Source: Leptospirillum ferrooxidans C2-3 (GTDB taxonomy: Bacteria; Nitrospirota; Leptospirillia; Leptospirillales; Leptospirillaceae). From it: DNA of 64,000 nucleotides. Of the stretch, positions 59,888 through 64,000 are shown piece after piece (position 1 is the stretch's first letter; each line of letters starts with the position of its first letter). Location: NCBI RefSeq assembly GCF_000284315.1, contig NC_017094.1:248001-312000 (forward strand). The letters are read 5' to 3'. Under the pieces are notes generated by a model. The model worked only from the letters and a program-made list of their open reading frames with translations, was not told the DNA's origin and made no database searches. Both the position numbers and the translations under genes were made by a program.

Positions 59888-61357
59888 CTATTTAGGTGGG
59901 GAAAATGTGAACATGGAGGGAGTGATCCGGTTGTCGACCGCCACGGGTTCACGGACAAGCTCGGGTGCTGATCCTGTGGCGGCCAGCAGGTCGAACTGGC
60001 TTTGGAGAAAGGATTCCGTTGCGTCGACGTATTTCAGTTGGGCGTGTACAAGATCGCGAAGACTGATGATGAGTTCAAGGGCATGATAGACACCCAGACG
60101 CACCCTTTTTCTCGAGGCCATGAATGTTTGCCGGGCAAGCCTGACATCGGATACGGCGATCCTTTCTTCGGAAAAGCTCTGGTTCAGGGATTCATATGAC
60201 TGGCTGACCTGCCGGTGAACCAGAAGCCTGGTCCTTTCCAGCCTGCTGTCGGCCAGCTCTTTTTGCCTGTTTGTCAGAAGAATTCTGGCAGGATCGAGTA
60301 TTCCCCCGGGTCCCACCGTCCATGAGGCAAAAAACAGGGTGGATCCATATCCTGTCAACGCATAGGGATCCGGACCGAGCTGACCGTTCAGCATCGTGAC
60401 GCCAATCGTGGGCAAGAGAGGAGCATACAGCGCTTCGTTGATGCCTTGTCGGCCCTCTGTGACCTGATAATGGCGTTTTTGCAAAAGGGGCCGATTCTTG
60501 TCCGAGAGGGTTAAGAGAGGTTCCAGGCGGTTTGGCATCTGGATGAAGAGCCTGGGAAGAATAAAGGACTCCTGCGGAATGGGAAGTGTTTCCCGTCCGG
60601 TTCCTAAAAGTTGGGCCAGGCGGAACCCGGCGATATAGGTCAGCCGCTCTTCTTCCACCAGGGCTCTCGAGTCTCTCGTGACCTCGTGGGCGGCCCGGAG
60701 AAGGCCGACAATGCTCGCTCCCCCCAGCTCCATTAGTCTCTTTTCCTCTTTCAGGATCTGCGCCGATATGGCGACTGCCCTTTCCAGAACGTAAATTCTG
60801 GACAGAAGGGCGCTTTCTTCGAAGTAGAGCCTGGCGGCCTGGGCCGTTTTCTGGTTAATCGTTTCGGACAGCTGAGAGCGGGTTTCATCGATCCTGGTTG
60901 TCTTGATCAATGTCTGAAAGCCCGAGACGCCCGGGCTTGTGCTCAAAACTCCTCCCTGTTCGATCATCGTGTGTTGCTTCTGGATATTTTCAAATAATCC
61001 GCTCGAACTCTGGACCTCCCCATTGTAAGCCATGGTTCCCCCGTTGACGGTAAAAGACGGGAAAAAGCCCTCGATAGCCAGATCCCTGATGGCATAGGAA
61101 ACGGCGAGTCTTTTTTTCTGGATCCTGATTTCCGGAGAGAGCTTGACCACCCGTTCAAGCACCTGAGAGATGGTGATGGGCAAGAGCCGGTATTGTGGTG
61201 AGGGGAAAATCGGAACCTTCGGGAGGTCTTCGATGTCCTGGTTGATGGAGGAGGTGGCCGCAATGGCTATGTTTTTGGAATGAAGGCCGGGCAATGGACA
61301 GGAGGAGATCAAGATCGAAAGGAGAATAAGCAAAATTCCTGGGACTGATCTGCTCAT
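59888..61357 (-). CDS. TolC-family outer membrane efflux protein
   Basis: 489 residues. The N-terminus (GILLILLSILISSCPLPGLHS) is a signal peptide with a possible lipobox ISSC, as in NodT-type lipoproteins. The mature part has the long alpha-barrel helices of the OEP family (LERVVKLSPEIRIQKKRLAVSYAIRDLAIEGFFPS; ESALLSRIYVLERAVAISAQILKEEKRLME; RLLVHRQVSQSYESLNQSFSEERIA). It forms the outer channel for the RND system encoded upstream. Its start overlaps the stop of the RND/adaptor gene. Confidence 0.88.
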   Translation of the reverse strand: MSRSVPGILLILLSILISSCPLPGLHSKNIAIAATSSINQDIEDLPKVPIFPSPQYRLLPITISQVLERVVKLSPEIRIQKKRLAVSYAIRDLAIEGFFPSFTVNGGTMAYNGEVQSSSGLFENIQKQHTMIEQGGVLSTSPGVSGFQTLIKTTRIDETRSQLSETINQKTAQAARLYFEESALLSRIYVLERAVAISAQILKEEKRLMELGGASIVGLLRAAHEVTRDSRALVEEERLTYIAGFRLAQLLGTGRETLPIPQESFILPRLFIQMPNRLEPLLTLSDKNRPLLQKRHYQVTEGRQGINEALYAPLLPTIGVTMLNGQLGPDPYALTGYGSTLFFASWTVGPGGILDPARILLTNRQKELADSRLERTRLLVHRQVSQSYESLNQSFSEERIAVSDVRLARQTFMASRKRVRLGVYHALELIISLRDLVHAQLKYVDATESFLQSQFDLLAATGSAPELVREPVAVDNRITPSMFTFSPPK

Positions 61358-64000
61358 TTTTGAACTCCCGGCTCTTCCCGGACAATGGGGTGGTCTCCGG
61401 ACAGGACCTGATGCTTGCCGGAGACAATGACCGCTTCCGATAGGTTCACTCCCTTCAGGATCTCAATGCTGACACCGTTGTCCTCTCCTGGAATGATGCG
61501 TCGCTCTTCAACTGAACCATCTTTTTTCAGTACATAAATAAACAGAAGGCCGTTTCTGGTCATGATGGCCGTATCGGGGATGGTCAGCCTGTTCTTGAGT
61601 GTATGGAGCAACAGGGAGACCCGTATGAACATTCCGGGTTTGAGCCGCTCGTTCCGGTTGTCGAAGATCGCCTCGACAGGCATCGTCTTGCTGTCTGGAT
61701 TCAGTGCGTGGCTGACCAGGGCGATTTTGCCCGAAATGGGATGATCAGGGTCTTGTTTGACGATGATGAGGGCAGGGGTGCCGATCGTCACATCATCGAC
61801 CGATGCTTGCGGAATATCAATTCTGACTCTCACTCTGGAGATGTCTTCAAGACGGAAAAGAGGGGTGTTGCTCCCTTTCTGTCCGACAAGGGCCCCCGGA
61901 TCGACATACCTTCTGGTGATGATTCCTGAAAACGGAGCCCGTATGACGGAAAACTGGAGTTGTGTGACATCTTCCCTGAGATTGGCCAGGGCTGAGAGAT
62001 AAAGATTCTGGGCCTGATCGACCTCTTCTCTCGAGATCAGGTCGGGAGATTCCTTGAGGGTTTGCCTGAAGCGGTTCAAAAGGGTCAGTCGGTACTGATA
62101 ATTGGCCAGTGCTCGCATGAAGTGTGTTCTCAGTTCGGGAATGTCGATCTGGGCAAGAATGTCATTTTTCCGGACACTTGACCCGATGTCGACCGAGACG
62201 GTTTTCAGGTATCCCAGAACCTGCGGATGGATTTCGGTCGACTGGTAGGATGTGACCGTTCCCGGGAGCCTGATGGAAACGGGAAGATCCGTGATGGTGG
62301 GATGAGTCACAAGGACTGTTGCCCTTGATCCCTCTATCGTGACCAGCTTGTCCTTTCGGGGAGTCTGGTGGCAGGAAACCAGAAATGGCATGAGAAAAAG
62401 CACAAGAAGGATCGATCGTAACGGAGTGTTGATCATGTTTTGGCCTTTATGGGTGGTGATGAATTGTTCTGTTTTCTTTAAAAAGAGAAAAGAGAGGACA
62501 GGAATCAAAAAGAGCGTCAGGGGAGTGGCGACAAGAAGTCCTCCGATAACGGACCTTGCCAGGGGAAGGGTGTTCTCGGATCCGACGCCAAAGCGGATGG
62601 CGACGGGGATCATGGCTGTAATGGCCGACAGGCTTGTGATCAGGATCGGCCGGATCCTTTCCCTGGACCCCCTCAGGATGGACTCCCTGAGGGGGATTCC
62701 CTCGTTGACGTACCGAAGGTAGCGGTTGACGAGAAGGATGCTGTTCGACGCGACAATACCGATCGTCATGAAGATCCCCATGATCGAAACAAGATTCAGG
62801 GAGGAATGGAGGATGCCAAGAAGGGCCATGCTGCCAATGATACCGAGAGGGACAACGCCGAGAACAATCAGGGGAGCGATGAAAGAACGGTAAAAGACAA
62901 GGAGAAGAAGGAAAAGGAAAAAGACTGCCAGCAGTATGCCTTTCGAAAGATTGGAAAAGGCATGCCTTATATGGGTCGTCATACCCACAAAACGGATGTG
63001 GATTCCGGGGGGTGTGGATGTGTTCTTTAACAGCTGGTTGATCCTGTCGGAAATCTGGATGGACTCTCCCGGGGAAGGCGCAACCAGAACATCTATGGCC
63101 CGGTCCAGACGATCGTGATCGATCTCTTCGGGGATATCCTGATGGGTAACCCGTGCGAGCTCTCCGAGATAGGTGATGCTTCCTTTCTGGGTGTGGGCTA
63201 CGGGAAGATTGGTCAGGTCTTCCATTCTCGTAAACTTTTCCGGCGGGTACATGACGGAAAGGTAGTAGAAGAATCCGGTTACGGGGTCGATCCAGGGAAT
63301 GGGCCGGATCGCGTTATTGGAGTTCAGGCTGACCTGAACATTCTTCGCAACCTCGTCTTCTTCTGTTCCGAGGATCTTTCCAAGCGTCCGGTCGACCTCG
63401 ATCTTCAGGGCCGGGTAATGGGGGCGTTGAAAGACATTGGAGGACAGGACTCCGGGAAGACCCCTTACTTTTTCCGCCAAACGTTTGGCATAAAGCATGC
63501 TGTTTTGGTAATGGTCTCCATGAATTTCGATGATCACAGGAGTGATTCTGCCCCGGGAAAGAAGATCCTGGACGATTCCGCTGGCCTTGAAGAGGAAAAT
63601 GGTGTTTTCAAAGTGCTTTCGCAGAATGGGCTCAAGATGTCTGATCGCCTGGGCAGTCGAATAGTGGCGATGATTTTTGGAGACCAGCGCGACATCGATA
63701 ATGGCCGTATCCGTTCCGGCATTGGGGTTGAAAATCGATGACCACCCTGCCTTGATGCCGATATTGGAGACGATCGCCGTGACGGTGTTCCCGGGAAGGG
63801 ATTTCCGTATCAGATGATCGATGGCGATCGATTCCTTCCGGGATACGGAAAGGCGTGACCCGCCCGGAAAATGGACAAAGATCCTGAACTGGCCGGCGTC
63901 GACCTCGGGATAAAGGCTCTGCGGAACCGAGCGCCCAAGAGGGAGGATCAGAAGAAGGATCATGGTAATGAAAAGAAGGGTTCTCGCCGGATGCAAGAGC
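61354..64000 (-). CDS. RND efflux permease fused in frame to a periplasmic adaptor (N-terminus beyond window)
   Basis: One frame without stop runs in from the window edge. The first about 520 residues are the C-terminal half of an RND permease: membrane helix 7 (RTLLFITMILLLILPLG), the pore and docking region, and helices 8-12, including SIMGIFMTIGIVASNSILLVNRY. Then, after FLKKTEQFITTHKGQN, comes MINTPLRSILLVLFLMPFLVSC, a lipoprotein-type signal, and a full membrane-fusion protein (STEIHPQVLGYLKTVSVDIGSSVRKNDILAQID, RAPFSGIITRRYVDPGALVGQKG). The internal ATG at 62436 has a weak AAGG, so separate adaptor synthesis is also possible. Topology fits: RND C-termini are cytoplasmic and the extra helix would lead the adaptor to the periplasm. 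Confidence 0.85.
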   Translation of the reverse strand, partial: LLHPARTLLFITMILLLILPLGRSVPQSLYPEVDAGQFRIFVHFPGGSRLSVSRKESIAIDHLIRKSLPGNTVTAIVSNIGIKAGWSSIFNPNAGTDTAIIDVALVSKNHRHYSTAQAIRHLEPILRKHFENTIFLFKASGIVQDLLSRGRITPVIIEIHGDHYQNSMLYAKRLAEKVRGLPGVLSSNVFQRPHYPALKIEVDRTLGKILGTEEDEVAKNVQVSLNSNNAIRPIPWIDPVTGFFYYLSVMYPPEKFTRMEDLTNLPVAHTQKGSITYLGELARVTHQDIPEEIDHDRLDRAIDVLVAPSPGESIQISDRINQLLKNTSTPPGIHIRFVGMTTHIRHAFSNLSKGILLAVFFLFLLLLVFYRSFIAPLIVLGVVPLGIIGSMALLGILHSSLNLVSIMGIFMTIGIVASNSILLVNRYLRYVNEGIPLRESILRGSRERIRPILITSLSAITAMIPVAIRFGVGSENTLPLARSVIGGLLVATPLTLFLIPVLSFLFLKKTEQFITTHKGQNMINTPLRSILLVLFLMPFLVSCHQTPRKDKLVTIEGSRATVLVTHPTITDLPVSIRLPGTVTSYQSTEIHPQVLGYLKTVSVDIGSSVRKNDILAQIDIPELRTHFMRALANYQYRLTLLNRFRQTLKESPDLISREEVDQAQNLYLSALANLREDVTQLQFSVIRAPFSGIITRRYVDPGALVGQKGSNTPLFRLEDISRVRVRIDIPQASVDDVTIGTPALIIVKQDPDHPISGKIALVSHALNPDSKTMPVEAIFDNRNERLKPGMFIRVSLLLHTLKNRLTIPDTAIMTRNGLLFIYVLKKDGSVEERRIIPGEDNGVSIEILKGVNLSEAVIVSGKHQVLSGDHPIVREEPGVQK

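Follow-up and report, generated by a model that had tools for sequence, protein, structure and literature searches.

A stop-free gene fusion of an RND permease and its periplasmic adaptor in two Leptospirillum species

The DNA analyzed here (the window) is a stretch of 64,000 nucleotides covering positions 248001 to 312000 of contig C1 in the 2,559,538-base single-contig genome of Leptospirillum ferrooxidans C2-3 (G000). On its minus strand, an open frame without internal stop was read from 61354 to 63999; it leaves the window at the right end, its 5' part extends ∼1.6 kb past the window, and the whole fused frame comprises 1,491 codons from stop to stop (L009:5358-9830, minus strand). Frame reading, Pfam, and NCBIfam assign the C-terminal 880 codons (61354 to 64000) to a fused RND permease-adaptor protein. 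All parts lie on the minus strand: the C-terminal half of the permease domain (62485 to 64000; the PF00873 match ends at residue 1115 of 1,491), a stop-free permease tail or linker (62437 to 62484) consisting of one residue plus LKKTEQFITTHKGQN, for which the MAG of a second species reads LKKTEQFITTHKGKK, and an internal ATG with the lipoprotein-type signal of the adaptor, MINTPLRSILLVLFLMPFLVSC (62371 to 62436), a candidate thirteenth transmembrane segment (TM13) or LspA site. The lipobox of this signal, LVSC, occupies 62382 to 62371 and is followed by the periplasmic adaptor body (61357 to 62370; HlyD_D23, HlyD_3, and RND_mfp). A weak Shine-Dalgarno-like site, AAAGG (62444 to 62448, −3.3 kcal/mol), lies 7 nt upstream of the internal ATG. 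The junction of the fused chain reads THKGQNMINTPLR, with FLVSCHQ across the predicted lipobox cut point (CHQTPR from the cysteine on).

A TolC-family outer membrane factor (59888 to 61357, minus strand; OEP, PF02321) follows, and its ATG overlaps the adaptor TGA by 4 nt (ATGA, 61354 to 61357), indicating that normal coupling persists at the adaptor-TolC junction. The neighboring genes (a pantoate ligase, a chorismate-binding enzyme, and Fic and HD domain proteins) are unrelated to the pump. A preliminary description had proposed one stop-free frame running from the permease into the adaptor, and such a frame is indeed present, with a complete permease and a complete adaptor. The internal ATG that it named at 62436 is also there, as is a lipobox in the lipoprotein-like signal that it described, but the window contains just the C-terminal half of the permease rather than the whole of it.

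The permease half matches PF00873 (ACR_tran) over residues 105 to 1115 (model positions 13 to 1019 of 1,021, 561 bits), and its hydropathy profile has exactly 12 hydrophobic peaks, with a further, shorter stretch of hydrophobic residues where the adaptor signal lies. The full-length match and the 12 transmembrane peaks identify it as an RND (ACR_tran) permease, and the closest solved structures are MdtB and AcrB. The AcrB-type (HAE1) proton relay, defined by Asp-Asp in TM4, Lys in TM10, and Arg in TM11, is not reproduced: TM4 has Asp-His, TM10 has Ser for Lys, and the TM11 Arg is kept. The variant TM4 and TM10 residues are common to all Leptospirillaceae orthologues compared, and because of them no detailed AcrB-like coupling is claimed. 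In the adaptor half, TIGR01730 (RND_mfp) matches residues 1180 to 1478 with 179.4 bits, above the curated cutoff of 94.9, HlyD_D23 and HlyD_3 match residues 1184 to 1401 of the fused frame, and MexJ, MexC-like, and MexA structures are closest. HAE1-type pumps (AcrAB-TolC, MexAB-OprM, and MdtABC) likewise have a permease, a lipoprotein-type adaptor, and a TolC-family channel encoded together; the Leptospirillum locus differs from them in its single permease-adaptor frame, in the order permease-adaptor-TolC, and in the TM4 and TM10 relay residues.

The same stop-free junction, in frame 0, was found in a Leptospirillum MAG (G001; L011 = L051, DAHWBS010000080.1) with 93% protein identity; no further member of the genus has the locus, and no orthologue of the locus was found in a third member, G002 (80% complete). 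The preliminary description had suggested comparing orthologues and had regarded a sequencing indel as fatal to the fusion. The second species settles this point, as finding the same frame in an independent MAG excludes both an indel error and chance. An overlapping stop would be restored by a small indel close to the junction, and the MAG contig has low coverage (cov 2.4); nevertheless, a sequencing or assembly artefact would have to be shared by a single-contig genome and an independent MAG, and both an artefact and a decaying operon are at odds with strong purifying selection on all parts and an intact downstream TolC gene. We regard either as highly improbable. At a dS between the two genomes of about 0.65 (0.63 to 0.71), dN/dS is 0.048 for the permease, 0.034 for the adaptor body, and 0.33 for the signal region, and strong constraint on both halves in two genomes argues against decay of the fused gene. 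Judged from these genomes, the Leptospirillum permease-adaptor fusion is a real, rare natural gene fusion in two species, with the stop-free junction kept in an independent genome. Purifying selection on each half does not, at the sequence level, show selection for the fusion itself, and the openness of the 15-codon tail was rejected as a sign of selection, since its probability of staying stop-free in both lineages under neutrality (P ∼0.35) makes it too weak. Separately, an A7 run (GGCAAAAAAATGATC; L011:1610-1624) precedes the internal ATG in the second fused genome and is a possible slippage site; it is absent from the window genome.

Besides the fused pair, a stop-free permease-adaptor junction occurs nowhere else in the family, the other members having separate genes. 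Junctions of the unfused orthologues read GGAGGC TAA ATG (G012, G018, and G020) or TAA ATG (G004), or they overlap by 4 nt (ATGA in G006 and in a second G018 copy, GTGA in G003). In the adaptor tree, the two fused sequences fall together with those of G006 and G003 (support 81/97), and the fused adaptor start, ATGATC, still holds ATGA. Given the 4-nt overlaps of these nearest unfused relatives and the ATGA at the adaptor start, the permease stop was most likely lost from such an overlap by a frame change in the variable cytoplasmic tail. A substitution in a TAA is a possible alternative origin; as the sole route, a TAA-to-sense substitution was set aside as unsupported because of the overlaps in G006 and G003. 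The gene order, which the preliminary description had considered inverted, is nothing special: permease-adaptor-TolC is found throughout this subfamily in the family and, on this comparative evidence, is ancestral at the locus and common elsewhere. Adaptor-then-permease was the commoner order in a broader scan; since same-frame permease-then-adaptor tandems occur in all five phyla sampled, the order is not the novelty.

The rarity of the fusion was surveyed with a profile spanning the permease end and the adaptor, in 295 genomes of the phylum to which the window belongs and 398, 345, 297, and 297 genomes from four other phyla. Spanning same-frame pairs numbered ∼66 in ∼1,630 genomes, a count from which rarity elsewhere cannot be read because the survey is biased to this permease subfamily, and three had no stop: the two Leptospirillum genomes and G1190. 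The last, the one unrelated case found when other fused RND-adaptor proteins were sought as the preliminary description had suggested, is a frame of 1,392 codons (L187:4366-8541, minus strand) in a genome of the phylum Acidobacteriota (that of G297), with a permease of another subfamily. Its joint, ...APAMKQTVLPLLLIAGLTVTGAACTAEK, is an intact lipoprotein-type signal, its internal ATG has a Shine-Dalgarno score of −6.0, and a search of nine further genomes from its order revealed no relative with this fusion. Six further candidates (G194, G126, G188, G251, G071, and G142) had come from a frame listing that reads through stops and were rejected, as their DNA in every case encodes permease and adaptor in separate frames. 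The plasmid matches H6, H13, H19, and H24, all with a stop between the genes, were rejected as well.

Two frames of another composition were also observed. In the taxonomic order of L187, an RND permease and a TolC-like OEP share a frame of 1,469 codons (L193:2701-7107, plus strand), joined at a type I-like signal, ...GAVAAAIVALLAWGGGAARA-ETPPP, without an ATG and with the adaptor gene upstream of the fused frame. A second, unrelated RND-OEP fusion of 1,557 codons (L194:3810-8480, plus strand) lies in a genome labeled Myxococcota (that of locus L073) and is joined at a signal-like stretch ending AFA-ASPS. The joints of L193 and L194 are type I-like signals ending in ARA or AFA; both of these fusions and L187 come from MAGs or unverified assemblies. 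Because an outer-membrane channel must presumably be cut free to function, chains of this kind could plausibly be processed by signal peptidases as a general rule.

Initiation at 62436, named by the preliminary description as one way out of the fusion, could in principle supply most of the adaptor as a separate lipoprotein, with the fused product minor. It would permit the usual 2:1 adaptor-to-permease ratio, and both genomes retain the ATG, the well-spaced AAAGG, the lipobox, and a positively charged n-region. The pairing of the site with the anti-Shine-Dalgarno sequence (GGATCACCTCCTTTCT, confirmed at the 16S tail of the window genome) has, however, the same energy of −3.3 kcal/mol in the two fused genomes. 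This is close to the median for internal ATGs taken at random (−2.7 to −3.3 kcal/mol) and far weaker than the −6.1 to −12.3 kcal/mol of 12 of the 13 unfused adaptor starts scored. The exception, the unfused relative G092, scores just −3.4, so a weak site does not exclude initiation. A strong site is not obligatory. In addition, the junction has no stop, and termination-reinitiation coupling is therefore impossible. Internal initiation as the main source of the adaptor is thus disfavored by its weak ribosome site and the lack of coupling, and we consider it improbable. With a weak internal site and no stop for reinitiation, the adaptor is probably made mainly within the long chain.

What becomes of that chain depends on the adaptor signal, which lies where a thirteenth membrane segment would and has the correct in-to-out topology, as the preliminary description had recognized. 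It has the charged n-region, h-region, and lipobox ([LVI][ASTVI][GAS]C) of bacterial lipoprotein signals in both fused genomes (LVSC), though at an internal position. Its uncharged hydrophobic run of 15 residues, with a proline, has the length of unfused lipoprotein signals and is shorter than a typical membrane helix. LVSC is identical in the two genomes, although the signal differs at 8 of its 22 residues and the following 19 residues differ at roughly half of their positions; four retained residues are, as sequence evidence, statistically thin and weigh weakly, and lipoprotein signals evolve fast anyway.

If the chain stayed intact, the signal would form TM13, and three fused chains carrying three adaptors (1:1) would assemble with TolC, possibly supplemented by a small number of free adaptors. 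The topology permits this, the internal Shine-Dalgarno site is weak, and engineered Escherichia coli AcrB-AcrA fusions act as efflux transporters according to the title of Hayashi et al. 2016, as cited in PMC8868134, PMC8300642, PMC7396618, and PMC10354078. Such a permanent tether nonetheless seems unlikely: the 15-residue stretch with its proline resembles a lipoprotein signal rather than an anchor, the lipobox is kept, pumps generally have six adaptors per three permeases (PMC8300642; PMC4446572), and AlphaFold2 gave no confident TM13 in the 880-residue part (pLDDT of <50 at 507 to 608), although the model is poor overall (mean pLDDT, 52.8) and was set aside as uninformative.

The retained LVSC and short hydrophobic stretch favor cleavage over a permanent 1:1 tether. 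The preliminary description had held that a fused chain forces either a new stoichiometry or an internal start; these are not the sole options, as signal peptidase II cleavage is a third. Our preferred reading, tentative and held at somewhat under even chances, is that of a genuine fusion made as one chain and then probably cut by Lgt/LspA into a permease and a lipoprotein adaptor, the precursor fixing a 1:1 ratio. As read from the frame, ribosomes would run from the permease into the adaptor and produce one chain of ∼1,400 residues. By RND topology, the permease C terminus would be cytoplasmic, and the embedded adaptor signal would thread the adaptor into the periplasm. After export, Lgt/LspA would probably lipidate the lipobox cysteine and cleave the chain, so that a lipoprotein adaptor and a permease normal but for a short stub at its C terminus arise from 1:1 synthesis; together with the TolC protein encoded alongside, the two might then form a tripartite RND pump of the ordinary kind. 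The unrelated L187 fusion, likewise joined at an intact lipoprotein signal, provides a supporting parallel, as do the type I-like signals at the joints of L193 and L194. More broadly, and with rather less confidence, we suggest that Gram-negative efflux pumps may be made as natural polyproteins, in which the cytoplasmic permease tail runs into the signal of the next part (adaptor or TolC-like channel) and is cut by a signal peptidase after 1:1 synthesis; the Leptospirillum fusion, L187, L193, and L194 would then be independent instances.

Among natural pump-part fusions bearing on stoichiometry, the fused dimeric adaptor DSY0927 (PMC4446572) joins adaptor to adaptor, whereas the Leptospirillum protein joins permease to adaptor. 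A limited literature search found no natural permease-adaptor fusions, which does not prove their absence. Man-made E. coli AcrB-AcrA fusions with designed linkers were reportedly described by Hayashi et al. in 2016 (J Bacteriol 198:332). These share with the Leptospirillum protein a permease and an adaptor in one chain, but the latter is natural and retains a complete lipoprotein signal at the joint. Bradyrhizobium FbcH is a cytochrome b/c1 precursor that signal peptidase cuts into two proteins, and this processing is proven. FbcH resembles the action proposed here in that a polytopic membrane protein runs into a periplasmic partner's signal peptide and is cut there by signal peptidase; it differs in belonging to an unrelated protein family, in having no lipobox, and in that its cleavage is proven while that of the Leptospirillum fusion is inferred.

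Whether a tripartite pump needs three adaptors or six was a matter of long debate. With a gene in which evolution has joined permease and adaptor 1:1 and which two species retain, adaptor number can be tested in a natural pump, by asking whether the chain remains tethered, is cleaved, or is supplemented with adaptor from internal starts. Cleavage would make the fusion a case of a bacterial efflux system produced as a natural polyprotein.
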